This document shows positions 4,175-18,775 of a DNA stretch of 36,232 nt, piece after piece. Position numbers and translations under genes: made by a program. Source of the stretch: Streptomyces afghaniensis 772 (lineage in GTDB: Bacteria > Actinomycetota > Actinomycetes > Streptomycetales > Streptomycetaceae). Every line of letters starts with the position of its first letter. Positions within the stretch are counted from its first letter, which is position 1. The stretch lies in assembly GCA_000415505.1 (NCBI GenBank), contig KE354498.1, positions 1 through 36,232 on the forward strand, written 5' to 3'. The notes under the pieces were generated by a model, which saw nothing but the letters and a program-made list of their open reading frames with translations, did no database searches and was not told where the DNA came from.

Positions 4175-4191
4175 CCTCCCAGGGAACTCTC

Positions 4192-5865
4192 ATGACAGAG
4201 CAGCAGCTGCCCGCCTGGGCCGACCCGTCCGTCTCCCCCGCGGCCCTCGATGCGCAGGGCGTCTCCCGCCGCGGGCTCCTGCGCCGCGCGGGCCTGTTCG
4301 GCGCCGCGTTCGCCCTGGGCTCGGCGGCGACCCCGGCCCTGGCCGCCGACGGCGACAGACAGCCGGGCGGCGATGACCCCCGACTCGCCTACCTCGTCGG
4401 CGACCACCACATCCACTCCGTCTACAGCCACGACGCCAAGTACACCTTCTCCCAACTGGCCGCCGCAGGGGCGAAGTACGGCCTGGACTGGATGGTGTTC
4501 ACCGAGCACTCCAACTTCGGGCACGCCGACTTCGGGGCCGCCCTGGAGCACCAGGAGATCCTGGACGCCCGGGCGGAGAACCCGCGTCAGCTGATCTTCC
4601 AGGGGCTGGAGTGGTACATCCCGGCGGCCGAGCACTGCACGGTCTTCACCCCGCCCGGCCGGAACGAGGTGGATCTGCTCACCCGGTTCGAGCGCGCCTA
4701 CGACGGCAAGCTCCTCGGCTACGACAAGGGCGGCCCCGCCGACGCGGACACCGCCCGCAACGAGGCACACGCCGTCAAGGCCCTCAAGTGGCTGGCCGAG
4801 CAGCGCCGTTCGGGCTACGTCGACGACGTTCTGGTCCTCGCCAACCACCCCATGCGCCTGGGCATCGACTCCCCGCACGAGATGCGCGCCTGGCGGGACG
4901 CGGCGCCCGGGATCATGATCGGCATGGAGGGCGCGCCGGGCGCCCAGGGCGCCGCCATCCCCGGCTGGCGTGGCGCCGCCTCGATCCGCGGCGAGTACGA
5001 GAACAAGCCGTCCGCGCAGTCCTGGCCCGGCTACCCGGCGGACGCCTATGTGACGTACGGCGGTTTCGACTGGGCGACCGCCACCGTCGGCGGCCTGTGG
5101 GACTCGATGCTCGCCGAGGGGCGGCTGTTCTCGGTCACCACCAACTCCGACGCCCACCGGATCGTCTTCGACACCTGGAAGAACGGCGACTGGCAGCCCG
5201 GCCAGACCTTCGACAGCACCGGGAAGCTGCCCGACCCGGTGAACACGGACACCCCGCAGCCGGGCAGCGACTTCTGGCCCGGGCAGTTCAGCCGTACGCA
5301 CGTGGGCGTGACCCGCTACGGCTACCGTGCGGTCATGGCGGGCCTGCGCGCGGGCCGGGTCTGGCTCGACCACGGGCATCTGCTCGACGGGCTCGACGTC
5401 CGGCTGAAGCGGGACGGCGACCGGGGCCGGGGCGTGACGCTGGGCGGCCGGCTGCGGGTCCGCAAGGGCGAGAAGCTCACCCTGAACATCACCGTGACGA
5501 CCGCCTCACGGCCCAACCCGCAGGGGATCCTGCCGGAGTTGGCGCACGTGGACGTCATCCGCGGCGCGGTGCGCGGCCCGGTCGCCGACCGTGACACCTG
5601 GAAGGCCCCCGACACCCGCGTCGTCCGCTCGCAGGACGTCTCCGGCCGCACGGGCACCTACACGCTGCGCATCCCGCTGACCGCGGGTGAGGAGTCCTTC
5701 TACGTCCGGCTGCGCGGCAGCGACGGCAACCGGCACGGCACCGGCTACCTCGGCGCCTCGGTCGACCCGCACGGACCGGTTCCGCACGCGCCCGGGGACG
5801 GTGACCCGTGGGCGGATACGTGGTTCTATGCGAACCCGGTATTCGTCGACGTGGAAGGTGCCTGA
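4192..5865 (+). CDS. Tat-exported PHP-domain protein (putative phosphoesterase)
   Basis: A 557-residue protein; ATG is preceded by CAGGGA. A twin-arginine signal (SRRGLLRRAGLFGAAFALG ending ALAADG) occupies about residues 24-52. The PHP (polymerase and histidinol phosphatase) fold starts near residue 68 with GDHHIHSVYSHD and runs through WMVFTEHSNF, LANHPMRLG and TNSDAHR, which supply the His/Asp/Glu ligands of a multinuclear metal site. The C-terminal 130 or so residues (TLNITVTTAS, YTLRIPLTAGEESFYVRLRGSD) look like a beta-sandwich. PHP enzymes commonly hydrolyse phosphomonoesters, but the substrate here cannot be read from sequence. It lies 17 bases after another Tat phosphoesterase and 4 bases before a small secreted protein, so the three probably act together outside the membrane. 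Confidence 0.87.
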   Translation: MTEQQLPAWADPSVSPAALDAQGVSRRGLLRRAGLFGAAFALGSAATPALAADGDRQPGGDDPRLAYLVGDHHIHSVYSHDAKYTFSQLAAAGAKYGLDWMVFTEHSNFGHADFGAALEHQEILDARAENPRQLIFQGLEWYIPAAEHCTVFTPPGRNEVDLLTRFERAYDGKLLGYDKGGPADADTARNEAHAVKALKWLAEQRRSGYVDDVLVLANHPMRLGIDSPHEMRAWRDAAPGIMIGMEGAPGAQGAAIPGWRGAASIRGEYENKPSAQSWPGYPADAYVTYGGFDWATATVGGLWDSMLAEGRLFSVTTNSDAHRIVFDTWKNGDWQPGQTFDSTGKLPDPVNTDTPQPGSDFWPGQFSRTHVGVTRYGYRAVMAGLRAGRVWLDHGHLLDGLDVRLKRDGDRGRGVTLGGRLRVRKGEKLTLNITVTTASRPNPQGILPELAHVDVIRGAVRGPVADRDTWKAPDTRVVRSQDVSGRTGTYTLRIPLTAGEESFYVRLRGSDGNRHGTGYLGASVDPHGPVPHAPGDGDPWADTWFYANPVFVDVEGA

Positions 5866-5869
5866 CCTG

Positions 5870-6718
5870 ATGGGACGTCAACTGCTCGCCGCCACCGCCT
5901 TATTAGGTGCCCTCACGCTGGGTGCCGGCACGGCCTCGGCCGCCGGTGCCCCGCAGTGGGCCGAGACCGGCACGTCGTACACCGACACCCTCGGCGGCGG
6001 GCAGGGCCTGGCCAGCCGCGCGGACGGCTCCCTGCTGTACCGCGGGCTGGCCTCCATCCCGCTGGGCCTGCGGGTCAAGGGCTGGAACCACATAGGCGAC
6101 CCGGACATCGCGCGCGGCCATGTCTTCGACGCCTACCAGGGATCGGACACGGCCACGTCGAAGATGTTCGCGGTCACCACCCCGGCCGGGAAGCGCTACG
6201 AGTACGTCCACCCGCTGAACCCGGGCGAGAAGCTGAACAACTCCTTCGCCGCCGTCTCGCCCGACGGTCAATGGCTGGTCTCGGGCGAGTGGGGCGCGCA
6301 GAACCGGCTCCAGGTGTTCCCGGCACCCCTGCTCAACCCCTCCACACCGCCCACCGGCGGCGAGCTGAGGGAGGCCGGGCAGATCACCCTGGACAAGCCG
6401 GTGCGTGACATCCAGGGCTGTGACTTCGTCACCGAGACCCGCCTGCTGTGCGCCTCGAACGACGCCTCGGGCACCCTCTTCCCGGAGATCCGGCCGCTGC
6501 TCCAGATCGATCTGCCCCACAAGCCGGACGGGCAGCCGGTCACCGGCACGGTGACGAGCCTCTTCGCGCTGCCGCAGCGCAGCGTGTGCACGGGCACCTT
6601 CGAGACGGAGGGCGTCGACTACGACGCGAACAGCGGCACCCTGCGGGCGCAGGTGATCCCGCCGGGCGTGTGCGCGGTGTCGACGGCCGTCCACGCGTAC
6701 CAGCAGGTCACGGACTGA
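5870..6718 (+). CDS. Secreted protein of unknown function with tandem TTA codons
   Basis: A 282-residue protein beginning MGRQLLAATALLGALTLGAG with a Sec signal peptide that is likely cleaved after ASA (about residue 26). The start ATG lies 4 bases after the PHP gene stop; GGAAGG is 12 bases upstream. The mature part is rich in beta-like segments and contains SPDGQWLVSGEW, a motif seen in beta-propeller blades. It has four cysteines (in IQGCDFV, RLLCAS, RSVCTG and PGVCAV), compatible with two disulfides. I do not recognise the family. Codons 11 and 12 (5900-5905) are both TTA, the rare leucine codon read by the bldA tRNA in Streptomyces, so translation may be restricted to late growth. Context suggests a partner of the two upstream exported phosphoesterase-like proteins. 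Confidence 0.75.
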   Translation: MGRQLLAATALLGALTLGAGTASAAGAPQWAETGTSYTDTLGGGQGLASRADGSLLYRGLASIPLGLRVKGWNHIGDPDIARGHVFDAYQGSDTATSKMFAVTTPAGKRYEYVHPLNPGEKLNNSFAAVSPDGQWLVSGEWGAQNRLQVFPAPLLNPSTPPTGGELREAGQITLDKPVRDIQGCDFVTETRLLCASNDASGTLFPEIRPLLQIDLPHKPDGQPVTGTVTSLFALPQRSVCTGTFETEGVDYDANSGTLRAQVIPPGVCAVSTAVHAYQQVTD

Positions 6719-6741: not shown

Positions 6742-7578
6742 GTGGGCCGCGTGACCGGTGAAGAGTCGCTGCGGCCCCAGTCCCTCATGCTGACGTTCCT
6801 GGGCGACCAGGTGCTCGGGCGCGATGTGTGCGTGTACTCGGGCAGTGTCATCGACGTGTTCGCCCGCGCCGGGATCGGCGAGCAGGCGACCCGCTCGACG
6901 CTGACCCGGATGGTCAACCGTGACCTGCTGCGCCGCCAGCGCGAGGGCCGCCGGATGTACTTCGGGCTGACCGAGCGCTCGGAGGCCGTGCTGCGCGACG
7001 GCGAGCGGCGCATCTGGCAGACCGGCGCCGTCAACCGGCACTGGGACGGCACCTGGACCCTGCTCGGTTTCTCCCTGCCCGAGTCCTGGCAGCGCCAGCG
7101 CCACGACCTGCGCTCCCAGCTGACCTGGAGCGGCTTCGGCCCGCTGTTCAACGGCCTGTGGATCGCGCCGGGCGAGGTCGACGTGTCGGCGCTGGTCGCC
7201 GAGCTCGGCCTGTCCGCCCATGTGAAGGTCTTCCGCGCGCACGCCGACGCCGGGACGGACATCGGGCAGATGATCGAGGAGACGTGGGAGCTGTCCGATC
7301 TCGCCGGGCGCTACGAGGCGTTCGTACGGCGCTGGCAGCCCTGGGAGGACGAGCTGCCGGACGCCGACGACGCTCTCGTGCTGCGGCTGCGGCTGCAGAC
7401 CGAGTGGCTCCGCATCGTCCGGCGCGATCCGCGCCTGCCGGTCAAGCACCTGCCGGACGACTGGCCGGCGGAACAGGCCGAGAAGACGTTCCGGGCCGTG
7501 CACGACCGGCTCTCACCGCTCGCGCGTGACGCCTCGGAACGTCTTCTCGACCTGGTGCCCGCGCGGCCTCAGGCGTAG
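6742..7578 (+). CDS. PaaX family transcriptional regulator
   Basis: A 278-residue protein matching the PaaX layout. An N-terminal winged helix (about residues 10-80: QSLMLTFLGDQVL, VFARAGIGEQATRSTLTRMVNRDLLRRQREGRRMYFGLTE) is followed by the PaaX middle and C-terminal domain (WDGTWTLLGFSLPES, FNGLWIAPG, and the helical tail RYEAFVRRWQPWEDE). PaaX proteins repress aromatic catabolism genes and respond to aryl-CoA thioesters. The GTG at 6742 has GGAGG four bases upstream; a second GTG at 6751 is an alternative start. It follows the secreted-protein gene by 23 bases and faces the cou-like operon, overlapping the MaoC gene end by 10 bases. Sensing of a CoA thioester made by that operon is an inference. 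Confidence 0.9.
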   Translation: MGRVTGEESLRPQSLMLTFLGDQVLGRDVCVYSGSVIDVFARAGIGEQATRSTLTRMVNRDLLRRQREGRRMYFGLTERSEAVLRDGERRIWQTGAVNRHWDGTWTLLGFSLPESWQRQRHDLRSQLTWSGFGPLFNGLWIAPGEVDVSALVAELGLSAHVKVFRAHADAGTDIGQMIEETWELSDLAGRYEAFVRRWQPWEDELPDADDALVLRLRLQTEWLRIVRRDPRLPVKHLPDDWPAEQAEKTFRAVHDRLSPLARDASERLLDLVPARPQA

Positions 7579-8024
7579 AACCGCGACAGGCTCTGGAGCA
7601 CCGCGGCCGGCTTGCCGCCGCCCTCGATCTCGATGGCGCCGTCGACCGTGATCTGCACGCCGCCCGGCACCTCCTCGACCTCGGCGAGCTTCGCCGTCAG
7701 CCGGATGCGGGAGCCGACCTTCACCGGGGAGGGGAAACGCACCTTGTTGAGGCCGTAGTTGACCTTCGTCGTCACGCCCTGGACGTCCAGGAGCTCGGTG
7801 AACAGCGGGATGAAGAGGGAGAGCGTGAGGTAGCCGTGCGCGATGGGGGCGCCGAAGGGTCCCTGCTTGGCCTTCTCGGGGTCCACGTGGATCCACTGGT
7901 GGTCCCCGGTCGCGTCGGCGAAGGTGTCGATCCGTTCCTGCGTGACCTCGATCCACTCGCTGGTGCCGAGGTCGCTGCCCGCGAGCTTCTTCAGTTCGTC
8001 GAGGCCGTTGACGGTGATGCTCAT
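7569..8024 (-). CDS. MaoC family (hot-dog) enoyl-CoA hydratase, CouM-like
   Basis: A 151-residue single hot-dog domain. The hydratase-2 motif FADATGDHQWIHVDPEKA (about residues 34-51) contains the catalytic Asp and His, followed by FGAPIAHGYLTLSL. MaoC proteins add water across enoyl-CoA double bonds. As the last gene of an SDR-amidohydrolase-CoA ligase-MaoC operon, it probably hydrates a hydroxycinnamoyl-CoA, matching CouM of the Rhodococcus cou pathway. The ATG is preceded by AAGGA on the minus strand and lies 11 bases after the ligase stop. Its 3' end overlaps the convergent PaaX gene by 10 bases. A fatty enoyl-CoA substrate is the main alternative. Confidence 0.9.
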   Translation of the reverse strand: MSITVNGLDELKKLAGSDLGTSEWIEVTQERIDTFADATGDHQWIHVDPEKAKQGPFGAPIAHGYLTLSLFIPLFTELLDVQGVTTKVNYGLNKVRFPSPVKVGSRIRLTAKLAEVEEVPGGVQITVDGAIEIEGGGKPAAVLQSLSRFYA

Positions 8025-8035
8025 GGAGCCGTCCT

Positions 8036-9544
8036 TCACTGGGAGTCGGTGCCGTAGCGCTTGCGCACACGGGATTTGAGGAGCTTCCCGGAGGCGGTGC
8101 GGGGCAGTTCGTCCGCCACCACGACCGACTTCGGGATCTTGTACTTGGCGAGGCGGCCGGCGAGCGACGCGAGGACCTCGTCGGGGTCGAGTGCGGCGCC
8201 TTCGCGGGGGACGACGACCGCGCGGGGCACCTCGCCCCACTTGTCGTCCGCCACCCCGATCACCGCGCACTCCACGATGTCGGGGTGGGCGAGGAGCTGG
8301 TCCTCGATCTCGGCGGGGTAGATGTTCTCGCCACCGGAGATGATCATGTCCTTGATGCGGTCGACGATGTAGACGTAGCCGTCCTCGTCGATCTGGGCGG
8401 CGTCGCCGCTGCGGAACCAGCCGTCCGCGAAGGACGCGGCCGTCTCCTCGGGCAGCCCCCAGTAGCCGGGCATGACGTGCGGCCCGCGCACCACGACCTC
8501 GCCCACTTCGCCGACATCGACCGGCGCGAGGTCGGGCCGTACGACGCGTACGTCGCTGAAGAAGTGCGGCACACCCGCGGAACCCGCCTTGCCGACGGCG
8601 TGCTCGGCGTCCAGGAACAGCGTGCCGGGGGCGGCCTCGGTCATGCCGTAGCCCTGGAGGAAGGTCAGGCCGCGCCTCTGGTACGCCGCGATCAGCGGGG
8701 TCGGGACCGGGGAGCCGCCGCAGGTCAGGATGCGCAGCGACGTCAGGTCGGCGTCCGGCCAGCGCGGGTGCCGCGCCACCTGGTCGAACATCGTGGGCAC
8801 CCCGAACATGAAGGTGATCCGGTGCCGTTCGATCAGATCGAAGGTGGCGTCCGGGTCGAAGGCCTCGACCAGGACGCAGGTGCCGCCCTTCAGCAGGACC
8901 GGGAGGGTCAGCATGTTCAGCCCTGCGGTGTGGAACAGCGGGGCGGAGACCAGCGCGCGTTCGTCGGCGACCAGGTCGTGGTCGATGAGGACGTTGATCG
9001 CGTTCCACGTGAGGTTGCCGTGGGTGAGCATCGCGCCCTTGGGACGGCCGGTCGTCCCAGAGGTGTACATGATGATGCAGGTGTCGTCGGGGGCGACGGG
9101 CGTGTCGATGGGCTCCCGGGAGGCCGAGGCCAGCGCCTCCTCGTACTCGGCGCCCACTTCGACGTACGTACGGACGTCCGTGCTGCCCGGGAGTCCCGCG
9201 ACGAGACCGGCGTGCGAGGGACCGTAGACGAGGGCCTTGGCGCCGGAGTCGGCGAGTTGGTAGGCGATCTCGGGGCCGGCCAGGCGGGTGTTGAGGGGGA
9301 CGAAGACCGCGCCGAGCGTGCCGGCTGCGAACAGGGTCTCCAGGTAGGAGGGGTGGTTCGGGCCGAGGTAGGCGATGCGGTCGCCGCGGCGCACGCCCCT
9401 CTCGCGCAGGGCGTGGGCGAGGCGGGTGGTGCGGTCGTACAGGCCGGCGTAGGTGCGGGTGGTGTCGCCGTGGATCAGGGCGGTGCGGTGCGGGGTCTTG
9501 CGGGCCCGGCGTGCGGGCCATGACCCCAGTCCCTCGTTGCGCAT
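8036..9544 (-). CDS. AMP-forming acyl-CoA synthetase, CouL-like
   Basis: A 502-residue member of the ANL adenylating family. Visible motifs in order are the P-loop YTSGTTGRPKGAM, QGYGMTEAAPG (A5), WFRSGDAAQIDEDGYVYIVDR (A7 and hinge), KDMIISGGENIYPAEIE (A8), and the catalytic lysine in RTASGKLLKSRVRKRYG at the C-terminus. It converts a carboxylic acid, ATP and CoA to acyl-CoA, AMP and PPi. Generic annotation would be a FadD-like fatty acid ligase. Co-transcription with SDR, amidohydrolase and MaoC genes under a MarR regulator makes an aryl acid such as p-coumarate or ferulate more likely. It starts 10 bases after the amidohydrolase stop and its own stop is 11 bases before the MaoC start. Confidence 0.93.
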   Translation of the reverse strand: MRNEGLGSWPARRARKTPHRTALIHGDTTRTYAGLYDRTTRLAHALRERGVRRGDRIAYLGPNHPSYLETLFAAGTLGAVFVPLNTRLAGPEIAYQLADSGAKALVYGPSHAGLVAGLPGSTDVRTYVEVGAEYEEALASASREPIDTPVAPDDTCIIMYTSGTTGRPKGAMLTHGNLTWNAINVLIDHDLVADERALVSAPLFHTAGLNMLTLPVLLKGGTCVLVEAFDPDATFDLIERHRITFMFGVPTMFDQVARHPRWPDADLTSLRILTCGGSPVPTPLIAAYQRRGLTFLQGYGMTEAAPGTLFLDAEHAVGKAGSAGVPHFFSDVRVVRPDLAPVDVGEVGEVVVRGPHVMPGYWGLPEETAASFADGWFRSGDAAQIDEDGYVYIVDRIKDMIISGGENIYPAEIEDQLLAHPDIVECAVIGVADDKWGEVPRAVVVPREGAALDPDEVLASLAGRLAKYKIPKSVVVADELPRTASGKLLKSRVRKRYGTDSQ

Positions 9545-9554
9545 GTCACGCCCC

Positions 9555-10430
9555 TTACGGTTTCGTCAGCCCGAGCAGACGGGCGGCGTTCTCCTTGAGG
9601 ATCTTCGGCCGGACCTCTTCCTTGATCGTCAGCTTGTCGAAGTCGGCGAGCCAGCGGTCGGGGGTGAGGACGGGGAAGTCGGAGCCGAAGAGCACCTTGT
9701 CCTTCAGCAGCGTGTTCGCGTACTGCACGAGCTGCGGCGGGAAGTACTTCGGCGACCAGCCGGACAGGTCGATGTGCACGCCCGGCTTGTGCGTGGCGAC
9801 GGCCAGGGCCTCGTCCTGCCAGGGGAACGACGGGTGCGCCAGGATGATCTTCAGGTGCGGGAAGTCGGCGGCGACGTCGTCGACGTGCAGCGGGTTGGAG
9901 TACTTGAGCCGGATGCCGCCCCCGCCGGGCACGCCGGCGCCGATGCCGGTCTGGCCGGTGTGGAACAGGGCGATGGTGCCGGTCTCCTCGATCACCTCGT
10001 AGAGGTCGTAGGCCACCGAGCGGTCGTTGGGGAAGAAGCCCTGGATGCTGGGGTGGAACTTGAAGCCCTTCACCCCGTACTCCTCGACCAGGCGGCGGGC
10101 CTGCTTCACCCCCGCCTTCCCGCGGAAGGGGTCGATGGAGGCGAAGGGGATGAGGACGTCGGCGTTGGCGGCGGCGGCCTCGGCGACCTCCTCGTTCGGG
10201 ACGGGCGCCGTGCCGGTGGCTGACTCGGCGTCGACCGTGAAGATCACGGCGGCCATCCTCCGCTCGCGGTAGTACGCGGCGGTCTCCTCCAGGGTCGGCT
10301 TCCGCTTGCCCTCGACCTTGAAGTAGGCCGAGGAGGCGTCGTGCAGGTCGTCGTCCAGGGAGGAGTGGCCCTTGGAGGACACCTCGGCGTGGGTGTGGAC
10401 GTCGATCGCGACGAGGTCGTTCAGGTCCAT
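9555..10430 (-). CDS. Amidohydrolase-2 family metal-dependent hydrolase, CouO-like
   Basis: A 291-residue TIM-barrel protein with the usual metal ligands of the family: HxH at residues 12-14 (DVHTHAE), His in GFKFHPS, His in ILAHPSFPW and Asp in FGSDFPVL. Relatives include decarboxylases and C-C hydrolases acting on aromatic or keto acids. In the Rhodococcus cou pathway an amidohydrolase (CouO) performs the deacetylation step after beta-oxidation of the side chain, yielding a hydroxybenzoate; the same role is inferred here from neighbours. The ATG overlaps the SDR stop codon by one base (TGATG) with GGAGG just upstream, so translation is probably coupled. Substrate assignment rests on context, not on residues. 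Confidence 0.9.
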   Translation of the reverse strand: MDLNDLVAIDVHTHAEVSSKGHSSLDDDLHDASSAYFKVEGKRKPTLEETAAYYRERRMAAVIFTVDAESATGTAPVPNEEVAEAAAANADVLIPFASIDPFRGKAGVKQARRLVEEYGVKGFKFHPSIQGFFPNDRSVAYDLYEVIEETGTIALFHTGQTGIGAGVPGGGGIRLKYSNPLHVDDVAADFPHLKIILAHPSFPWQDEALAVATHKPGVHIDLSGWSPKYFPPQLVQYANTLLKDKVLFGSDFPVLTPDRWLADFDKLTIKEEVRPKILKENAARLLGLTKP

Positions 10431-11347
10431 CACGCCTCCGGGAACTTCGGTGCCGGGATGCCGACCGACTGCAGTTCGGCACCGACCGAGGTGGGCCAGG
10501 CGTCCGCGAGGGTGCCGGGGGTCCAGCCGCCGTCGGCGTAGGCCGCCCTGATCTCCTGCGGATGCGACCAGAGTGCCACCTTGTCGCCGCCGATGCCGAT
10601 GGCCTGCCCGGTGATGCCGCGCGCGGCCTCGGAGGCCAGGAACGGGACCAGGGCGGCGCAGTCCTCGGGGGTGCCGAAGCCCTCGCCCTTGCGCAGGAAG
10701 TCCGGCAGCGGCTCGCCGTTCCTCATGGCCTCGATGTACGGGGCGAAGGCCGGGATCGTCTCGGTCATCGCGGTCGCGGCGACCGGCACGATCGCGTTGA
10801 CGGTGATGTTCGCGCGGCCCAGCTCCATGGACCAGGTGCGGGCCATGGCCGCGATGCCGGCCTTGGCGGCGGCGTAGTTCGTCTGGCCGAAGTTGCCGCG
10901 CTGGCCGGCCGGGGAGCCGACCAGGATCAGCGAGCCGCCCTCGCCCTGCTCGCGCATCCGGACGGCGGCGGCGCGGGCGCAGGTGAAGGTGCCCTTGAGA
11001 TGGGTGGTGATCACCGCGTCGAAGTCGTCGTCGGTCATCTTCCACAGCACCTTGTCGCGGAGGATGCCCGCGTTGGTGACGAGGACGTCCAACCGGCCGA
11101 ACTCCTCGACCGCGCGGTTCACCAGCCGCTCGGCGGCCTCGGAGGTGCCGACCGGGACCACCTCCGCCACTGCCTTGCCGCCCGCCTCGGTGATGGACTT
11201 CACGGCCGCCTCGGCCACGGCCTCGTCGACGTCGTTGACGACGACGGATGCGCCGTGGGCGGCCAGGGCGTGCGCGTAGGCGAGGCCGAGGCCCCGGCCG
11301 CTGCCGGTGACGACGGCGACCTTGCCGGAGAGATCGATGCTGGGCAC
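10430..11347 (-). CDS. SDR family oxidoreductase, MFE-2-like 3-hydroxyacyl-CoA dehydrogenase (CouN-like)
   Basis: A 305-residue short-chain dehydrogenase with the Rossmann motif TGSGRGLG, NAG, and catalytic Ser plus YAAAK. The stretches VTNAGILRDK, GNFGQTNYAAAKAG and the acidic residue after the second strand (VVNDVDE) closely resemble the (3R)-hydroxyacyl-CoA dehydrogenase of multifunctional enzyme type 2, and the Asp suggests NAD+ use. It should oxidise a 3-hydroxyacyl-CoA to 3-oxoacyl-CoA; with MaoC hydratase and CoA ligase in the same operon, the aryl side chain of hydroxycinnamates is the likely substrate. It starts at GTG with AAGGGA eight bases upstream, first gene of a four-gene leftward operon behind a good promoter at 11385-11413. 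Confidence 0.92.
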   Translation of the reverse strand: MPSIDLSGKVAVVTGSGRGLGLAYAHALAAHGASVVVNDVDEAVAEAAVKSITEAGGKAVAEVVPVGTSEAAERLVNRAVEEFGRLDVLVTNAGILRDKVLWKMTDDDFDAVITTHLKGTFTCARAAAVRMREQGEGGSLILVGSPAGQRGNFGQTNYAAAKAGIAAMARTWSMELGRANITVNAIVPVAATAMTETIPAFAPYIEAMRNGEPLPDFLRKGEGFGTPEDCAALVPFLASEAARGITGQAIGIGGDKVALWSHPQEIRAAYADGGWTPGTLADAWPTSVGAELQSVGIPAPKFPEA

Positions 11348-11384
11348 GGGTGGGTCCCTTCACACGGGTTCGACTTCGAGATCG

Positions 11385-11413
11385 AAGCTAAGAGCAATAA
11401 TTGTTGACGTCAA
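11385..11413 (-). promoter_or_regulatory. Promoter of the SDR (cou-like) operon
   Basis: On the minus strand, TTGACG (complement of 11408-11413) and TAGCTT (complement of 11385-11390) are separated by exactly 17 bases, matching a housekeeping sigma consensus well. The first codon of the SDR gene is about 38 bases below the -10 element. The -35 hexamer is embedded in the palindrome described separately. Confidence 0.65.
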
Positions 11414-11421
11414 TAGTTGTT
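11396..11421. promoter_or_regulatory. Candidate MarR operator between SDR and marR genes
   Basis: The centre is a perfect 10-bp palindrome TTGACGTCAA (11404-11413). The symmetry continues imperfectly ten bases either side of the GACGTC core (13 of 16 half-site positions pair). It covers the -35 element of the leftward operon and lies just upstream of the rightward MarR gene, the usual arrangement for an autoregulated MarR repressor whose ligand is a catabolic intermediate. Confidence 0.6.
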
Positions 11422-11433
11422 GGCGACCCAAAG

Positions 11434-11958
11434 GTGCGAGATGCTGGGATCCCAGGAAGCGCCGAGCACAGGGAGCCCGTCATCACACGCCAGAACGTCA
11501 CCCCGAAGCCCATCGACGCGCACGAGCCGTGGATGCGCGGGCTGCACGCCGACACGGGGTACCTGCTGTACCGCCTGGGCCTGCGCTCGGGACAGCTCTT
11601 CAACTCCTGCCTCCAGGAGTCGGGCCTGCGCCTGCGCCACTACGCGGTACTGCGCTTCCTCGCCACCTCCGAGGGCGCCCTCCAGCGCGAGCTGAGCACC
11701 CGGCTCGGCTACGACCCGAGCGCGATCGTCGGCCTGGTCGACGACCTGGAGAAGCAGGGCTTCGCCGAGCGCCGCCCCTCCCCCGACGACCGCCGCAGCC
11801 GGATCGTCGCGCTGACCGAGAAGGGCCGCGCGTTCCTGCGCGACACCGACGAGGCGGGCCAGCGGGTGACGAACGAGCTCCTGGGCCCGCTGGACCCGGC
11901 CGAGCGGGACGCGCTGCACGGGCTGCTGCTGCGGATCGCCGAGGACGGACTCAACTGA
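11434..11958 (+). CDS. MarR family transcriptional regulator, CouR-like
   Basis: A winged-helix MarR protein, about 174 residues from GTG 11434. The conserved core starts near 11533 (ATG; MRGLHADTGYLLYRLG) and contains the recognition region ALQRELSTRLGYDPSAIVGLVDDLEKQGFAERRPSPDDRRSRIVALTEKG, with the typical beta-hairpin wing DRRSR. It is divergent from the SDR operon with a shared palindrome, so repression of that operon and of itself, relieved by an aryl-CoA thioester as for CouR, is inferred. The start is uncertain: TTG 11401/11404 lie inside the operator, GTG 11434 has no clear ribosome site, and the only good one (AGGGAG, 11470-11475) sits six bases before an ATC codon at 11482. Confidence 0.88.
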   Translation: MRDAGIPGSAEHREPVITRQNVTPKPIDAHEPWMRGLHADTGYLLYRLGLRSGQLFNSCLQESGLRLRHYAVLRFLATSEGALQRELSTRLGYDPSAIVGLVDDLEKQGFAERRPSPDDRRSRIVALTEKGRAFLRDTDEAGQRVTNELLGPLDPAERDALHGLLLRIAEDGLN

Positions 11959-11972
11959 TGTTGTGCAAATGA

Positions 11973-12001
11973 TTGACGGCTGCACGATGGATGCATAACT
12001 T
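11973..12001 (+). promoter_or_regulatory. Promoter of the MHS transporter-esterase-IclR operon
   Basis: TTGACG (11973-11978), a 17-base spacer and TAACTT (11996-12001) match a housekeeping sigma promoter. It starts 14 bases after the MarR stop and 37 bases before the transporter start. TGCA occurs three times around it, possibly half-sites for the IclR or MarR regulator. Confidence 0.65.
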
Positions 12002-12037
12002 CATCGGCCAACCGAGACCCGTCCCCAGGGAGCTCCC

Positions 12038-13387
12038 GTGCAGCCATCCCCTTCTGCCGCTCAACCTGCCCCCGATTCGCGGCAGTTGCGCCGCGTGGCC
12101 GTCTCCGGCCTGCTCGGAACGGCCGTCGAGTTCTACGACTTCCTCGTCTACGGCACGGTCGCCGCGCTCGTCTTCGGAGAGCTGTTCTTCCCCCGGGCCG
12201 ACCCGGCGGTCGGCACCATCGCGGCGTTCGGCACCTTCGCCGCCGGCTATCTCGCCCGCCCGCTCGGCGGCATCGTCTTCGGCCACTTCGGCGACCGGAT
12301 CGGCCGCAAGTCGATGATGCTGCTGACCATGGTCCTGATGGGCTCGGGCAGCTTCCTCATCGGCCTGCTGCCGACGTACGACGCGATCGGCGTCTGGGCC
12401 CCCATCCTGCTGGTCGCCCTGCGCGTGGTGCAGGGCATCGCGATCGGCGGCGAGTGGGGCGGCGCGATGCTCATGGTCGTCGAGCACGCCGAGCACGCGC
12501 AGGGTTCCCGGCGCGGTCTGTGGTCCAGCTTCACCCAGCTCGGCGCCCCGCTCGGTTCCGTGCTGTCGGCCGGTGTGGTCACCATCGTCGCCGGGCTGCC
12601 CGACGACGAGTTCCGCTCCTGGGGCTGGCGGGTGCCGTTCCTGCTGAGCATCGTGCTGCTGGCCGTCGGGCTGTTCGTGCGCCTCAAGGTCGCCGAGAGC
12701 CCGCTGTTCGCCCAGGTCAAGCGGCAACCGGTGGACAAGCCGCCGATCGTGGAGGTGCTGCGCCGTCCGAAGCCCGTACTGCTGGCCGCGTGCGTCGGCA
12801 TCGGCGCGTTCACCGCCCAGTCGCTGCTGACGAGCTTCATGATCTCCTACGCCGTCGACGAGGGGTACACCCGCCCGCAGGTGCTGACCGCGGTGACCGT
12901 CGCCTCCTGCGTGGCCCTCGTCGTCCTGCCCGCCGCGTCCGCGCTGTCGGACCGGGTCGGCCGCCGGCCCGTCGTGCTCGCCGGAGCGGTCGCCTCGGCC
13001 GCGCTCGCCTTCCCCGTGCTGGCGCTGGTCGACTCCGGCTCGCCCGGACTGCTGATCCTCGCCCTCGCCCTCGGTCACGGTGTCGCCCAGTCCACGATGT
13101 ACGGGCCGCTCGGCGCCCTGCTCACCGAGATGTTCGGCACCCGCGTCCGCTACACCGGTGCCTCCCTCGGCTACCAGGCGGCCACGCTGATCGGCGCCGG
13201 GTTCTCCCCGCTCATCGCCGGCAGCCTCCTCGCCTCGTACGGGGGCGGAAGCACGCCCGTCTCGCTGCTGCTGTGCGCGGGCGCGGCGATCACCGCCGTC
13301 ACCGTGTGGCGCCTGCGCGAGACGCACACCGACGCCCTCGACTCCCCCGCGCCCACCGCCCCCACCCTGGAAGGGACCCCGCGTTGA
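12038..13387 (+). CDS. MHS-type major facilitator transporter (aromatic acid/H+ symport)
   Basis: A 449-residue membrane protein with about 12 hydrophobic segments. Motifs typical of the metabolite:H+ symporter (MHS) branch are visible: TAVEFYDFLVYGTVAALVFGELFF at the first helix, FGHFGDRIGRKSMM in the loop between helices 2 and 3, RVVQGIAIGGEWGGA in helix 4, WGWRVPFLLS and a second DRVGRRP. It starts at GTG with GGGAG upstream. Its place next to the cou-like enzymes and regulator suggests uptake of hydroxycinnamates (CouT role). It overlaps the esterase start by 4 bases (TTGA), so the two are translationally linked. A resembling transporter lies in the quinate/shikimate cluster of this window. 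Confidence 0.92.
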   Translation: MQPSPSAAQPAPDSRQLRRVAVSGLLGTAVEFYDFLVYGTVAALVFGELFFPRADPAVGTIAAFGTFAAGYLARPLGGIVFGHFGDRIGRKSMMLLTMVLMGSGSFLIGLLPTYDAIGVWAPILLVALRVVQGIAIGGEWGGAMLMVVEHAEHAQGSRRGLWSSFTQLGAPLGSVLSAGVVTIVAGLPDDEFRSWGWRVPFLLSIVLLAVGLFVRLKVAESPLFAQVKRQPVDKPPIVEVLRRPKPVLLAACVGIGAFTAQSLLTSFMISYAVDEGYTRPQVLTAVTVASCVALVVLPAASALSDRVGRRPVVLAGAVASAALAFPVLALVDSGSPGLLILALALGHGVAQSTMYGPLGALLTEMFGTRVRYTGASLGYQAATLIGAGFSPLIAGSLLASYGGGSTPVSLLLCAGAAITAVTVWRLRETHTDALDSPAPTAPTLEGTPR

Positions 13388-14751
13388 GGATCCGCCTCGC
13401 TTTACTGACCGCCTGCCTGTCCCTCGCGACCGCGCTGCCGGCGCAGGCCGCCGCCACGGACAGCCACCTGGAGGGCCGGCTCCCCTCCGGTGCCGCGTAC
13501 GTGATGGACGTCCCCGCGTCCTGGAACGGCACGGTGCTGCTGTACAGCCACGGCTACTCCCCGGCCGGAGCCCCCAACCCGGCCCAGAACACTCCGGGTG
13601 CGGCCGCCCGGGACAAGCTGCTGGCCGAGGGCTACGCCCTGATCGGCTCCTCGTACGCGACGAACGGCTGGGCCGTCACCGAGGCGGTGCCGGACCAGCT
13701 CGCCACGCTGGATCTGTTCACCGAGAAGTTCGGGGCGGCCCGGCGGACGCTCGCCTGGGGCACCTCGTACGGCGGGTTCGTCACGACGATGCTCGCCGAG
13801 CGGCACGCCGGCCGGTTCGACGGCTCGCTGTCGATGTGCGGGCTGGTGCAGGGCGGCGTCGCCAACTGGAACAGCACCCTGGACCCGGTGTTCGCGCTGC
13901 GCACGCTCCTCGCACCGGACTCCGGGATCCGGCTCACGGGCTTCGCCGGCCAGCCGGAGGCGGTCGCCGCCGGGAAGGCGTTCACCTCGAAGGTCGACGC
14001 CGCCCAGCAGACCCCCGAGGGCCGGGCCCGGATCGCCCTCGCCGCCGCCCTGCACAACATCCCCGGCTACAACGACGCCTCGCAGACCGAGCCGGGGCCC
14101 ACGGACTGGGAAACCCAGCAGGCCAACCAGTACACCGCCGTCCGGGGCCTGCTCCAGATGCCCGCGTTCAGCTGGCGGCAGGAGGCCGAGAGCCGGGCGG
14201 GCGGCAACCCGTCGTGGAACACCGGTGTCGACTACACCGCCATGCTCACCCGGTCCCCGCTGTACAAAGAGGTGAAGGAGCTCTACAAGGAGGCAGGACT
14301 GTCCTTGCGTACCGACCTCTCGGCCCTGGGCCGGGCACCCCGGATCTCCGCCGATCAGCCGGCCGTACGGTGGATGCGGAACACCAGTGTGCTCTCCGGC
14401 CGACTGGCCGACCCGCAGCTGAACATCCACACGACCGGTGACGCGCTGATACCGGTGCAGTCGGAGAGCGCCTACCGGCGGGCGGCCGGCGCGGCCGGCT
14501 CCGGACCGCTGTTCCGTCAGGCCTACGTCGACGCCCCCGGCCACTGCACGTTCACCCCCGGCGAGACCCTGGCCGCCCTGCACGCCCTGGAACACCGCCT
14601 GGACACGGGCCGCTGGGACACCTCGCCCGCCGCCCTCAACTCCCGCGCCACAGCGGCGGATCCGACGGCGGATCCCCGCTACGTCCCGTACCGCCCGGCC
14701 GCCTACCCCCGCCCCTACGACCTCGCCCACCCGGGAGACACCCGGCCATGA
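13384..14751 (+). CDS. Secreted alpha/beta hydrolase, candidate hydroxycinnamoyl (feruloyl-type) esterase, TTA codon
   Basis: A 455-residue exported hydrolase starting at TTG that overlaps the transporter stop, with GGAAGGGA upstream. The Sec signal peptide covers about residues 1-22 (LALLTACLSLATALPAQAAA). The fold is alpha/beta hydrolase: LLYSHGYSP near the oxyanion strand, nucleophile elbow GTSYGG (Ser128), probable acid Asp353 in TTGDALIPVQSE, and His387 in APGHCTF. Codon 7 (13402-13404) is TTA, so translation probably depends on the bldA tRNA. The operon (aromatic acid transporter, IclR regulator, divergent cou-like pathway) suggests that it releases hydroxycinnamic acids from plant esters outside the cell. 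This is inference; a general esterase or peptidase-like activity is possible. Confidence 0.82.
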   Translation: MRIRLALLTACLSLATALPAQAAATDSHLEGRLPSGAAYVMDVPASWNGTVLLYSHGYSPAGAPNPAQNTPGAAARDKLLAEGYALIGSSYATNGWAVTEAVPDQLATLDLFTEKFGAARRTLAWGTSYGGFVTTMLAERHAGRFDGSLSMCGLVQGGVANWNSTLDPVFALRTLLAPDSGIRLTGFAGQPEAVAAGKAFTSKVDAAQQTPEGRARIALAAALHNIPGYNDASQTEPGPTDWETQQANQYTAVRGLLQMPAFSWRQEAESRAGGNPSWNTGVDYTAMLTRSPLYKEVKELYKEAGLSLRTDLSALGRAPRISADQPAVRWMRNTSVLSGRLADPQLNIHTTGDALIPVQSESAYRRAAGAAGSGPLFRQAYVDAPGHCTFTPGETLAALHALEHRLDTGRWDTSPAALNSRATAADPTADPRYVPYRPAAYPRPYDLAHPGDTRP

Positions 14752-15542
14752 CCGCACTGCCCCGAGTCCTCGGCTCCGCTCACGCGGGCGGCGCCGCCCC
14801 GACCGCGACCGACCGGCTGCTGTCCGTCCTCGCGGCCTTCGACCACGAGCACCCGGCCCTGTGCCTGACGGACATCAGCCGACGGGCCGGACTGAGCCTG
14901 ACCACCGCGCACCGGCTGGTGGGCGCGCTCACCGAGTGGGGAGCCCTGGAACGGGACGAGTCCGGCGTCTACCACGTCGGGCTGCGACTGTGGGAGATCG
15001 CCGCACTGGCGCCGCGCGGCCTCGCCCTGCGGCAGATCGCGCTGCCGTACCTGGAGGACCTGTACGAGGCGACGCACGAGAACGTGCAGCTGGCGGTGCG
15101 GGACGGCACGGACGTCGTCTACATCGAGTGGCTGTCGGGGCGGTCGGCGGTCGGTGTGCACATCCGCGTCGGCGCGCGCTGGCCGCTGCACGCCACCGGG
15201 GTCGGGCTCGCCCTGCTGGCGCACGGGGACCCGGAGTTCCAGGAGGAGTACTGCGCGGGCGCACTCGCGTCCTTCACGCCGTACACGATCACCGACCCCG
15301 CACGGCTGCGGCGGGAGCTCGCCGGAGTGCGCCGGACCGGCGTGGCGGTGAGCGACCGCCAGGTCACGGAGGACGCCCTGTCGGTGGCCGCGCCGGTGCG
15401 CACGGCGGACGGCTCGGTGGCCGCCGCCGTGTCCGTCGTGGTACCGCACGCCGACGCCCAGGTGCCGGTGCTGGTCCCGGCGGTACGGGTGGCGGCGCGC
15501 GGGATCTCCCGGGCCCTGGGGTGGCAGCCGGAGCGGGCCTGA
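14748..15542 (+). CDS. IclR family transcriptional regulator
   Basis: A 264-residue regulator. An N-terminal winged helix-turn-helix (about residues 22-80: TDRLLSVLAAFDHEHPALCLTDISRRAGLSLTTAHRLVGAL) is followed by the IclR effector domain (LRQIALPYLEDLYEATHENVQLAV, HIRVGARWPLHATGVGLALLA, VAVSDRQVTEDALSVAAPV). The ATG overlaps the esterase stop (ATGA), so it is the third gene of the transporter-esterase operon. IclR proteins commonly control aromatic acid catabolism, as activators or repressors; here the likely targets are its own operon and perhaps the cou-like genes, with a hydroxycinnamate or hydroxybenzoate ligand. The ligand is not readable from sequence. Confidence 0.93.
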   Translation: MTALPRVLGSAHAGGAAPTATDRLLSVLAAFDHEHPALCLTDISRRAGLSLTTAHRLVGALTEWGALERDESGVYHVGLRLWEIAALAPRGLALRQIALPYLEDLYEATHENVQLAVRDGTDVVYIEWLSGRSAVGVHIRVGARWPLHATGVGLALLAHGDPEFQEEYCAGALASFTPYTITDPARLRRELAGVRRTGVAVSDRQVTEDALSVAAPVRTADGSVAAAVSVVVPHADAQVPVLVPAVRVAARGISRALGWQPERA

Positions 15543-17712: not shown

Positions 17713-18639
17713 TCAGCGCAGTTCCGCCCGGAACGCCGCCGGCGTCTGGTCCGTGTGCTGGTGGAAGAACTTGGAGAAGTTCGCGGCGTCGGGGAAGCCG
17801 ACCGCCGCGCCGACCCGGCCGATCGGCAGGTCGGTGTGGGCGAGGAGGCGTTTGGCCTCCAGGACCACGCGCTTGTCGATGAAGGCCTTGGGGGTGTCCC
17901 CGGTCGCGCCGCGGACCGCGCGGACCAGGGTGCGGCGGGAGTAGCCGAGCGCATCGGCGTAGGCGCTGACGCTGTGGTTGGTGGCGAAGTCCTTCTCCAC
18001 GGCGTCCCGGAAGAGGGTGAAGGTGGAGTCGGACGTCTGTCGTACCGACTCCGCCGTACTGGCGGCGAGATGGGCGAGCCGCAGCAGGAACGCCGTCAGC
18101 GAATGGCGCAGGACGGCGGTGTGCAGGCTCAGCGGCAGCGTGTCCGTGTCCTCGTACTCGCGGCGGAGCTGGCCGAGCGAGTCGCGCAGACCGGCGAGTT
18201 GGGCCGCGTCGGGACGCAAGTGCGGCGGCAGGTCGTAGCGGTACAGGCCGGTGGCCTCGACGGTCGCGCGGGGCAGGAAGCCCGGCTGCATGGTCAGCAC
18301 CGTTCCGCGGTACTCGCTCGTGCGGGAGAAGCGGTGGACCTGCCCCGGGCGGATCCACAGCAGGTCCCCGGCCGTGGCCTCGTACTCGGTGAAGTCGACC
18401 ATGTGCCGGACCGGGCCCTCGCCGAACAGCAGCACGACGTGGAAGTCGATGCGGTGCACGCGCTCCAGGGGCGCGTCGGCGTGCCAGGTGCGGCCGGTGC
18501 CCATCGGGCCGACCTGCATGCCGACGCCGCCGACACTCAGCTCGACCGGGAAGGGGAACGTTCTGATCCCGTCGCCGCCTTGGATGCCTCTGTCTGCCAT
18601 ATCTGCCATATCCGCCATGTCCGCCTCGTGCCGCCCCAT
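17713..18639 (-). CDS. AraC family transcriptional regulator
   Basis: Up to 308 residues. The N-terminal half is a cupin-like sensing domain (FHVVLLFGEGPVRHMVDFTEYEATAGDLLWIRPGQVHRFS). The C-terminal 100 residues hold two helix-turn-helix motifs (VSAYADALGYSRRTLVRAVRGATGDTPKAFIDKRVVLEAKRLLAHTDLPIGRVGAAVGFPDAANFSKFFHQHTDQTPAAFR). The first ATG (18639) lacks a ribosome site. The ATG at 18618 has GAGGCGG just upstream and is a good alternative, giving 301 residues. Three Met codons recur in a 9-base tandem repeat there. It is divergent from the pentose-phosphate operon and convergent with the glucanase gene. Its target is unknown; regulation of the adjacent tkt operon is plausible but unproven. 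Confidence 0.9.
   Translation of the reverse strand: MGRHEADMADMADMADRGIQGGDGIRTFPFPVELSVGGVGMQVGPMGTGRTWHADAPLERVHRIDFHVVLLFGEGPVRHMVDFTEYEATAGDLLWIRPGQVHRFSRTSEYRGTVLTMQPGFLPRATVEATGLYRYDLPPHLRPDAAQLAGLRDSLGQLRREYEDTDTLPLSLHTAVLRHSLTAFLLRLAHLAASTAESVRQTSDSTFTLFRDAVEKDFATNHSVSAYADALGYSRRTLVRAVRGATGDTPKAFIDKRVVLEAKRLLAHTDLPIGRVGAAVGFPDAANFSKFFHQHTDQTPAAFRAELR
18592..18627 (-). repeat. Four 9-bp tandem repeats at the AraC start region
   Basis: Read on the minus strand, four 9-base units follow each other: GAGGCGGAC, ATGGCGGAT, ATGGCAGAT, ATGGCAGAC, encoding Glu-Ala-Asp then Met-Ala-Asp three times. The first unit supplies a ribosome-binding-like GAGG and the next three each carry an in-frame ATG. 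Confidence 0.85.
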
Positions 18640-18707
18640 TCGCGCGCCGCGCTGCCTTGGGGTGTCCCACTTTCACCACAGGCTGGCACACGGCGACCTT
18701 CCGTCGA

Positions 18708-18722
18708 AAAAGTCAGACTTTT
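18708..18722. promoter_or_regulatory. Palindrome in the AraC-tkt intergenic region (candidate operator)
   Basis: AAAAGTCAGACTTTT is a perfect inverted repeat, seven bases each side of a central A, in an A/T-rich patch that contrasts with the surroundings. GTCAGAC occurs again at 18735-18741. A possible -10 (TAGTTT, 18722-18727) for tkt overlaps it, but no good -35 is seen. It is a likely binding site for a regulator of the pentose-phosphate operon. Confidence 0.5.
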
Positions 18723-18775
18723 AGTTTTGAAGACGTCAGACCAGCCACTTCGCTCCTATCGAGGACTTCTTGAAG

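Follow-up and report, generated by a model that had tools for sequence, protein, structure and literature searches.

A probable Rhodococcus-like cou locus for p-hydroxycinnamate catabolism in Streptomyces afghaniensis 772, with a candidate PaaX-type site at its transporter promoter

The window analyzed here is the whole stretch of 36,232 nucleotides from Streptomyces afghaniensis 772. Between positions 7569 and 11347, its minus strand carries genes for an SDR dehydrogenase, an amidohydrolase, a CoA ligase and a MaoC-type hydratase (Table 1). A preliminary description of this DNA had called them one tight operon, and the gene spacing agrees: the SDR and amidohydrolase genes overlap by one base, and the next gaps are 10 and 11 bases. 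The divergent MarR gene and the MHS transporter gene that it claimed are present, and the PaaX-type regulator gene said to face the operon is indeed convergent to the MaoC gene, with an overlap of 10 bases. The hydrolase and IclR genes, absent from that description, each overlap the preceding gene by 4 bases and therefore continue the transporter unit. It was also silent on two operator-like inverted repeats, at 11400-11414 and 11960-11999. Further along the window, positions 29258-34307 hold a candidate quinate/shikimate module.

Table 1. Genes and other features of the locus, with their positions in the window
Feature	Position	Strand	Characteristics
PaaX-like regulator gene, 278 aa, proposed second regulator	6742..7578	+	Pfam PaaX, PaaX_M and PaaX_C, all over cut-off
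MaoC-type enoyl-CoA hydratase, CouM-like, 151 aa	7569..8024	-	PF01575, 97 bits
Hydroxycinnamate/feruloyl-CoA ligase, CouL/Fcs-like, 502 aa	8036..9544	-	PF00501 and PF13193; PDB 8weu/8wev
Amidohydrolase, CouO-like, 291 aa	9555..10430	-	PF04909 (Amidohydro_2), 186 bits; HxH motif
SDR dehydrogenase, CouN-like, 305 aa, first gene of the operon	10430..11347	-	PF13561/PF00106
Promoter-like sequence of the SDR operon	11385..11413	-	-35 TTGACG (11408-11413), 17 bp, -10 TAGCTT (11385-11390)
Putative CouR-type operator, ATTGT-TGACG-TCAAT	11400..11414	.	one mismatch to ATTGA-N5-TCAAT; overlaps the -35 of the SDR promoter
MarR regulator, CouR-like, 141 aa	11533..11958	+	top PDB matches 5cyv and 3fm5; start not certain
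Proposed PaaX-type operator, GTTGTGCA-N24-TGCATAAC	11960..11999	+	exact repeat; same place in relatives
MHS-family (MHS/MFS) transporter, CouT-like, 449 aa	12038..13387	+	TIGR00883, 413 bits, under its cut-off of 443
Putative secreted alpha/beta serine hydrolase	13384..14751	+	PF19878, 27.4 bits (cut-off 22.4); PF00326, 25.7 (cut-off 22.6)
IclR-family regulator, last gene of the transporter unit	14748..15542	+	PF01614/PF09339

The order SDR, amidohydrolase, ligase, MaoC was kept in all 62 Streptomyces neighbourhoods compared, and is therefore not due to chance. Placement of the ligase and hydratase in one operon, to which the preliminary description had drawn attention, was confirmed but is not peculiar to this locus, since Nocardia, R. 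yunnanensis and Microbacterium loci likewise have the two genes side by side in the same orientation, after those for SDR and amidohydrolase. The MaoC protein contains the GD-x4-H motif, and the SDR protein contains both YxxxK and TGxxxGxG. The CouO-type amidohydrolase, proposed to perform the beta-ketoacyl-CoA cleaving step, was found in 160 of 392 sampled Streptomyces genomes (about 41%). The promoter-like pattern ahead of the SDR gene is present in 54 of the 62 Streptomyces loci, in both clades (A and B).

The Rhodococcus cou gene content announced in the preliminary description was borne out: the products match those of the R. jostii locus (L091; strain NBRC 16295, with a MarR 98% identical to the CouR sequence used) at 42-64% identity, with 46% for the ligase, 63% for MaoC, 64% for the SDR, 61% for the amidohydrolase, 42% for MarR and 48% for the MHS transporter encoded beside the cou ligase. 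Like CouNOLMRT of R. jostii RHA1 (PMC4737184), the window combines SDR, amidohydrolase, ligase, MaoC, a divergent MarR and an MHS transporter, with a CouR-type box over the -35 of the SDR promoter. The two structures matched best by the MarR protein, 5CYV and 3FM5, are CouR of RHA1 (PMC4737184, Table 1), and equivalents of CouR Arg36 and Arg38 are kept. This gene might also begin further upstream, with a GTG at 11434. Its putative operator resembles the published CouR box (PMC4737184) and is the sole one in the window at up to one mismatch, against 0.06 expected; in clade A Streptomyces loci, a box with at most one mismatch occurs in 38 of 47, and with at most two in all 47. Unlike the RHA1 cou genes, the window has the ligase, scoring nearer to Fcs, inside the operon with MaoC at its end, a transporter unit extended by genes for a secreted hydrolase and an IclR regulator, and a PaaX gene. 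Furthermore, scanning the window at up to one mismatch gave no CouR-type box at the transporter promoter, where RHA1 has one; a PaaX-type repeat takes its place.

Genes SCAB_15591-15621 of S. scabies (locus L152; PMC6904314) have the identical four-gene order, 88-95% identity (90% for MaoC) and a CouR-type box with two mismatches. The identity of this genome was deduced from primers: 10 of 10 published primers match, and one primer pair matches 1 of the 392 genomes. In the available parts of PMC6904314, SCAB_15591, 15601, 15611 and 15621 are all listed as detected only with ferulate, with qPCR for the first two, and induction of the ligase and MaoC orthologues is given as more than 100-fold by ferulate and more than 300-fold by p-coumarate. 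This induction, together with the Cou/Fcs homology, supports the hydroxycinnamate reading of the preliminary description. The locus is thus of a known kind, and its link to hydroxycinnamate substrates in Streptomyces is already published. In the same parts of that paper, the pathway uses two of the four ferulate-detected proteins, and SCAB_15611 and SCAB_15621 are listed under other functions; these two are probably the enzymes that the published ferulate proteome was missing. A further likeness is the phd operon of Corynebacterium glutamicum, a phenylpropanoid operon whose MarR repressor PhdR is released by p-coumaroyl-CoA, according to the available part of PMC7593625. Elsewhere in the window's own genome, aromatic-acid enzymes include a full-length PobA-like protein (510 bits, under the cut-off of 538.7), an adjacent PcaGH-type pair and VanA (92%).

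In the transporter unit, the hydrolase gene begins with a TTG start that overlaps the transporter stop, and the N terminus of its product, read by eye from the sequence, is signal-peptide-like. The matches to DUF6351 (tannase-like) and Peptidase_S9 are both weak, a PDB search gave one marginal match (dipeptidyl peptidase 4, E 0.0088), and a single-sequence structure model was unusable (mean pLDDT 37). Putative Ser, Asp and His positions are kept in 17 of 17 aligned relatives, and the protein may act as an esterase. The IclR protein scored 145 bits with the PcaR/PobR subfamily model TIGR02431, under its cut-off of 285; in many clade A loci an IclR gene directly follows the MarR gene.

The tree placed the window PaaX in a cou-linked clade. 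Outside this main clade lie 5 of the 29 PaaX proteins linked to cou; inside it there are also two PaaX genes that have no cou enzymes next to them. Genes of the clade accompany cou loci, replace MarR in some Streptomyces, or sit elsewhere by the same transporter and hydrolase. Most other PaaX paralogues, from seven genomes, are 28-35% identical to the window protein and mostly form a separate clade. Among related, hence non-independent, genomes, PaaX was found in 53 of 59 that are CouO-positive (six lack it) and in 1 of 21 that are CouO-negative. Near the clade A loci, transporter/hydrolase and PaaX genes occurred together in 11 cases, transporter/hydrolase only in 7, PaaX only in 2, and neither in 27. 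In four of those 7 (L208, L210, L212, L214) the transporter and hydrolase genes lie downstream of the MaoC gene and the box is missing there; L236 has the box, with PaaX about 13 kb away, beyond the stretch read; and L167 and L213 show no more than a partial hydrolase or a transporter match of 46%. In clade B, neither a PaaX gene within 9 kb nor a gene for a CouR-like MarR was seen at 6 of 15 loci (the nearest to it in L043 is a MarR homologue of 30%), and the sole PaaX of L222 is distant (32%); another regulator must therefore act at these loci. Unlike the window, the 20 kb read around the S. scabies locus lack homologues of the transporter, the hydrolase and PaaX; 4.3 Mb off on the same contig lie a transporter (79% identical), a PaaX (63% identical) and a box with two mismatches.

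The transporter promoter contains a long-gapped repeat, GTTNNGCA-N24-YGCNNAAC around TTGAC. In the window the -35 TTGACG (11973-11978) lies between the two arms and the -10 TAACTT (11996-12001) overlaps the second arm. This is the sole exact match in the window and, with the TTGAC core, in its own genome. A scan of the 392 genomes, whose relatedness makes the counts non-independent, gave 28 sites in 28 genomes, against 2 for a reversed control pattern. Twenty-seven precede a transporter, hydrolase, SDR or ligase gene: 19 an MHS gene (one a remnant), 4 a hydrolase, 2 an SDR, 1 an Fcs-like ligase, and 1 an ABC-transporter-plus-cou gene run; the last is at a contig end. We then considered 20 further PaaX loci held out, chosen by us from genomes without a strict site, allowing up to three mismatches in the box. 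An MHS and/or hydrolase gene was adjacent in 20/20 and a box stood ahead of one in 16, with none at MHS or hydrolase in the other 4; three weak sites occurred elsewhere, and the reversed sequence gave 0. A weight-matrix scan placed 9 of 10 distinct sites scoring at least 16 at paaX, transporter or hydrolase promoters (L231 being the exception), in a tally that leaves out training sites and reverse-strand mates; unrelated sites mix in at lower scores. The window's own site falls outside the 40 best, with a score of 1.9 on its forward strand, and is a candidate operator by its exact repeat pattern and its conservation in near relatives. The search for a box upstream of the window's own paaX gene was negative, and no persuasive one turned up at PaaX loci that are phylogenetically distant (L044-L047).

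Could the operon be a fatty-acid or steroid side-chain beta-oxidation module with a generic resemblance to cou? Its NCBIfam names are generic, and the ligase passes only the cut-off of a long-chain-fatty-acid ligase subfamily among the best 25 of 107 models; with the steroid-24-oyl-CoA synthetase model it reached 312 against a cut-off of 750. The preliminary description had held that best matches to fatty-acid or steroid pathways would speak against a cou assignment, but of 161 ligase matches in the R. jostii genome (NBRC 16295, not RHA1; 150 of 225 first-look candidates scored) the cou-cluster ligase came first, with 464 bits against 366 for the runner-up. The best solved structures, near full length, are 8weu and 8wev (675 and 673 bits with phmmer; FadD13, 350), and 8wev was deposited as a feruloyl-CoA synthetase. 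The conserved CouR box and MarR, and the induction of the orthologues by ferulate and p-coumarate in the available parts of PMC6904314, also argue against such a module. It is very improbable, and was set aside on structure matches, model scores and the R. jostii ligase ranking. Fcs is known from the Fcs/Ech vanillin route. A ligase feeding this non-beta-oxidative route, the other operon genes serving another purpose, would be in line with its higher score with 8wev than with the R. jostii cou ligase; however, the operon, where it was looked for, contains no crotonase-type Ech gene, and none of the 62 Streptomyces loci separates the four enzyme genes. We set a pure Fcs/Ech route aside as improbable, the operon having no Ech. 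A vanA mutant of S. scabies accumulates vanillate from ferulate, in the available parts of PMC6904314, which is compatible with the beta-oxidative and the Fcs/Ech routes alike. The Streptomyces locus very probably degrades plant-derived coumaric and ferulic acid by the pathway known from Rhodococcus.

The partner of the long-gapped repeat might instead be MarR, IclR or a general factor, PaaX being merely a neighbour, as the site lies between MarR and IclR genes in the window and the repeat brackets a normal promoter. Yet the site accompanies PaaX in clade B, where the CouR-like MarR is absent, it occurs at detached PaaX-transporter-hydrolase loci at which no MarR or IclR homologue was detected, and all 28 box-positive genomes contain a cou-type PaaX, so that another binder is rather unlikely. 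A slightly larger chance, though still a doubtful one, goes to a PaaX-transporter-hydrolase module whose substrate is another, related plant compound (quinate/chlorogenate or phenylpropionate), co-selection being its only tie to cou. Besides the general MHS model, the best equivalog of the transporter is the shikimate transporter (364 bits, below cut-off), the quinate/shikimate module candidate lies in the same window, and the box of L302, whose genome has no CouO, is followed by a ligase gene and next by an acyl-CoA dehydrogenase gene; against this, in clade B and in L216 a similar box stands ahead of the genes for cou catabolism itself, and the transporter is similar to the MHS linked to cou in R. 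jostii. A chance position of the PaaX gene was rejected on neighbourhoods, tree, site distribution, co-occurrence with CouO and held-out loci. The PaaX regulator is probably a working part of the locus, not merely a neighbour.

We consider it likely that the locus serves p-hydroxycinnamate catabolism in the manner of Rhodococcus Cou and is governed by two circuits. The MHS transporter would import p-coumarate or ferulate, the ligase would form the CoA thioester, and MaoC would then hydrate the double bond. After oxidation of the beta-hydroxyl by the SDR, the amidohydrolase would convert the beta-ketoacyl-CoA to 4-hydroxybenzoate or vanillate and acetyl-CoA, and the PobA-, VanA- and PcaGH-like enzymes could complete degradation. 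The sequences themselves show gene content, homology, conserved sites and genomic associations; we infer the substrates and reactions, as well as DNA binding by either regulator, their ligands, the direction of PaaX control and the esterase role. In one circuit, the CouR-like MarR would repress the four-gene operon at 11400-11414 until removed by hydroxycinnamoyl-CoA. In the other, new circuit, the PaaX-like protein is proposed as a second regulator that binds the repeat 11960-11999 and controls the transporter and the secreted hydrolase, placing uptake and the release of substrate from plant esters under their own aryl-CoA-type sensor. In other Streptomyces a similar site lies on the catabolic operon, where PaaX would take the place of MarR. 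With fair confidence, we propose for Streptomyces a second, PaaX-type regulator of hydroxycinnamate use that acts through the arms GTTNNGCA and YGCNNAAC of its operator on a mobile module, the transporter together with the secreted esterase-like hydrolase, and that in some species displaced the CouR-type MarR at the catabolic operon, a natural exchange of CoA-thioester-sensing regulator families. What is new is the proposed role of the PaaX gene and its site; control by PaaX through this site appears to be a new layer, if experiments confirm it. The site would link plant-phenolic release, uptake and degradation, makes a candidate regulator and a putative secreted hydrolase directly testable, and the locus offers two CoA-thioester sensor candidates for lignin-monomer biosensors.

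The window protein shares its domain make-up with the PaaX of phenylacetate catabolism. Unlike the latter, it scores 155 bits against a PaaX equivalog cut-off of 264.6, so that it is filed only as PaaX-like, and it differs in the arm sequence of its proposed operator and in its linkage to cou genes. A true phenylacetate PaaX was rejected on this score and because no paa genes were found among the window genes scanned. The phenylacetate PaaX operator and the one proposed here both have two arms about three helical turns apart: the half-sites are 33 bp apart in the E. coli PaaX site, TGATTC-N27-GAATCA (PMC9493321), and 32 bp apart in the long-gapped repeat.

The gene calls, made from reading frame, codon-position G+C and Pfam matches, confirmed the arrangement in the preliminary description: an operon of SDR, amidohydrolase, ligase and MaoC genes, accompanied by MarR, MHS transporter and PaaX genes. 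The four enzyme genes show the spacing of a single operon, all on the minus strand. Two genes absent from that description were added, encoding a secreted hydrolase and an IclR regulator; the run from the transporter gene to the IclR gene, in which each gene overlaps the next, resembles a second transcription unit. A putative Ser/Asp/His set of the hydrolase is kept in the alignment of 17/17 relatives, and its link to tannases is one weak Pfam match, equalled by a weak match to Peptidase_S9. The ORFs upstream of paaX are poorly assigned: of the four scanned, one gave a weak match to a PHP domain and three gave nothing.

Features of the window (coordinates 5′ to 3′ on the forward strand)
Feature	Position	Strand
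Poorly assigned ORFs	3871-6718	+
PaaX-like gene	6742-7578	+
MaoC gene	7569-8024	-
AMP-binding ligase gene	8036-9544	-
Amidohydro_2 protein gene	9555-10430	-
SDR gene	10430-11347	-
Candidate CouR box	11400-11414	
MarR gene	11533-11958	+
Repeat at transporter promoter	11960-11999	
MHS transporter gene	12038-13387	+
Secreted alpha/beta hydrolase gene	13384-14751	+
IclR regulator gene	14748-15542	+
Pentose-phosphate/glycolysis cluster	17713-27746	
Quinate/shikimate-type module	29258-34307	

The cou enzymes were reportedly first described by Otani and co-workers in 2014. For comparison, 64 loci were fetched by scanning named genomes with the CouR letters of a PDB alignment. They include cou loci from Rhodococcus, Saccharopolyspora, Nocardia and other genera, and more distant loci that were left out of use. 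RHA1 is absent from this set, and R. jostii NBRC 16295 (L091) served as reference, its MarR sharing 98% identity with the CouR query. Identities to the window proteins were 64% for the SDR, 61% for the amidohydrolase, 63% for MaoC, 46% for the ligase, 42% for MarR and 48% for the MHS transporter. The ligase, expected in the preliminary description to resemble Cou proteins rather than fatty-acid or steroid enzymes, did so: among its 161 matches in the whole NBRC 16295 genome (150 of 225 first-look candidates scored), the cou-locus ligase, assigned by position relative to L091, came top with 464 bits, the next reaching 366. Its best PDB matches were 8weu (675 bits) and 8wev (673 bits), the latter deposited as feruloyl-CoA synthetase, followed by FadD13 (350). 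The top two PDB chains for the MarR protein were 5cyv and 3fm5, listed in a table of PMC4737184 as CouR with and without p-coumaroyl-CoA. Equivalents of Arg36 and Arg38, alanine substitution of which eliminates DNA binding by CouR (PMC4737184), are retained in the PDB alignment counted by hand; of the three base-recognition residues named in that paper, Asp65 and Ser67 are kept and Gln68 is replaced by alanine.

The CouR box, which the same paper writes as cATTGA-N5-TCAATg, lies over the -35 in cou promoters. The candidate box ATTGT-TGACG-TCAAT, in the SDR-MarR gap, is the window's sole match at a limit of one mismatch (0.06 expected in 36 kb); in the SDR sense it overlaps the -35 TTGACG, with 17 bp to the -10 TAGCTT. 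In clade A (Streptomyces loci with an amidohydrolase at least 85% identical; n=47), the best site near SDR had 0-1 mismatch in 38 loci and 2 in 9; among the 17 named loci L087-L103 there were 0 mismatches in 11, 1 in 5 and 2 in 1. For clade B (n=15) the counts were 2 mismatches in 1, 3 in 6 and 4 in 8. A MarR more than 60% identical was found in 47/47 clade A and 0/15 clade B loci, the clade B locus L043 having a homologue at 30% identity. The CouR-type MarR would thus be predicted to repress the catabolic operon.

Expression data exist for the S. scabies orthologues. SCAB_15601 (ligase) and SCAB_15591 (MaoC) rise more than 100-fold with ferulate and more than 300-fold with p-coumarate (PMC6904314). 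Table 3 of that paper, which collects the ferulate-only proteins, includes both, together with SCAB_15611, classed with amino acid metabolism as 'Amidohydrolase', and SCAB_15621, a 'Dehydrogenase/reductase' in the general-function class; in the available text the authors' pathway draws on no enzymes other than ligase and hydratase. Of 392 Streptomyces genomes, G583 alone is matched by the primer pair for SCAB_15591, and it carries exact matches to 10/10 primers tested from five genes; we infer that G583 is S. scabies. Its locus has the gene order of the window, with enzymes 88-95% identical. For each of the four enzyme genes there is therefore an orthologue with a product seen on ferulate, so that the system is of a known kind, MarR circuit included, and the Cou-type pathway first proposed, operating as in Rhodococcus, is well supported. 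The S. afghaniensis genome also encodes a PobA-like protein of full length, which at 510 bits falls just short of the 538.7 cut-off, a VanA with 92% identity to SCAB_15301 and, side by side, two PcaGH-type intradiol dioxygenases; judging by these families, 4-hydroxybenzoate and vanillate would have a route to protocatechuate and onward. A second Fcs-like ligase of S. scabies, 60% identical to the window ligase, lies outside the cou operon (L303:9598-11097).

A PaaX homologue was found nearby in 22 of 62 Streptomyces neighbourhoods, hand-picked from 160 CouO-positive genomes and an earlier search, and in 7 of 32 non-Streptomyces loci. In Streptomyces it is placed convergently after MaoC, as in the window, beside MarR, or divergently upstream of the catabolic genes, the last seen in clade B, where no CouR-like MarR is present. 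A tree of 46 PaaX proteins placed 24 of the 29 cou-linked ones in one group of 26 (support 98/100), which includes two genes away from cou enzymes, one from S. scabies; those of L044-L047 and L222 fall outside. In 80 hand-picked, related genomes (28 with the strict box described below, 32 CouO-positive without it, 20 CouO-negative), PaaX at E 1e-50 or better was present in 53/59 CouO-positive versus 1/21 CouO-negative genomes, the exception, G588, having the box and no CouO at E 1e-40; given the relatedness of the genomes, the Fisher p-value for these counts is indicative only. Judged by this distribution, the PaaX gene is probably not a mere neighbour of the cou locus. Neither a PaaX homologue nor a CouR-like MarR was found in the sequence read around the clade B operons L043, L170, L218, L219, L220 and L224; L218 nevertheless carries a PaaX-type box.

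An inverted repeat, ATTCGGCA-N24-TGCCTAGC with variations, is common to eight clade B SDR promoters and brackets the promoter. A weight matrix was built from these sites, masking the core promoter, and run over 2,471,276 positions. Excluding training sites and their mates, 9 of 10 distinct sites scoring at least 16 lie at paaX, transporter or hydrolase promoters; below 16, unrelated noise mixes in. The window transporter promoter has a related repeat, GTTGTGCA-N24-TGCATAAC, in the clade B register; its matrix score is low (1.9), and it is kept in near relatives and fits exactly the strict pattern GTTNNGCA-N5-TTGAC-N14-YGCNNAAC, formulated after seeing these sites. This pattern occurs once each in 28 of 392 Streptomyces genomes (reversed pattern, 2). 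Nineteen sites are upstream of an MHS gene (one a remnant), four of a hydrolase and two of an SDR gene; one precedes an Fcs-like ligase gene with an acyl-CoA dehydrogenase gene after it, one is at a contig end, and one precedes a branched-chain-type ABC transporter. The latter genes (L216:4308-9769, genome G492) lead straight to the SDR-amidohydrolase-ligase-MaoC genes, as though a different uptake system had been substituted while the PaaX-type control stayed the same; p-coumarate ABC transporters exist in Rhodopseudomonas. In G588 (L302:8814-12820), PaaX and box are grouped with an acyl-CoA dehydrogenase and a ligase of 61% identity, which may represent a phenylpropionate-type variant.

The box was also sought at 20 held-out PaaX loci, taken from genomes that lack a strict site; 19 of the 20 are not part of cou loci. 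Every one (20/20) has a transporter and/or hydrolase gene as neighbour, with hydrolase identities as low as 43%, and a box with at most 3 mismatches precedes one of these genes in 16/20 and neither in 4/20; three further 3-mismatch sites are located elsewhere, and the reversed sequence gave 0 sites in 385 kb. The S. scabies genome carries its cou-type PaaX (63% identity) 4.3 Mb away from the cou operon; the gene immediately follows an MHS gene of 79% identity, which is preceded by a box with two mismatches. No box was found upstream of the window's own paaX, and L208, L210, L212 and L214, with transporter and hydrolase behind MaoC, have neither PaaX nor box at that gene. The half-site distance is similar to that of the E. 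coli PaaX site, quoted as TGATTC-N27-GAATCA in a review (PMC9493321). The long-gapped repeat is a candidate PaaX operator, through which the PaaX-type regulator would act on the supply side, transporter and secreted hydrolase. As PaaX senses phenylacetyl-CoA and CouR senses p-coumaroyl-CoA, an aryl-CoA suggests itself by analogy as the candidate ligand. The literature searched, which covers few subscription journals and makes this a weak absence, gave no link of PaaX to hydroxycinnamate use.

Fourteen kb past the IclR gene is what looks like a module leading from quinate/shikimate to protocatechuate. Its members are a 3-dehydroshikimate dehydratase/HPPD fusion of QuiC-like type (578 bits, cut-off 1200; match from ORF residue 227), a shikimate dehydrogenase that scores above cut-off, a TetR gene and a further MHS transporter. 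Together with the cou operon, this set could deal with each of the two halves of chlorogenic acid. The pentose-phosphate/glycolysis cluster comprises transketolase, transaldolase, G6PD, OpcA, PGI, 6PGD-like and histidine phosphatase genes and adjoins a divergent AraC-type regulator.
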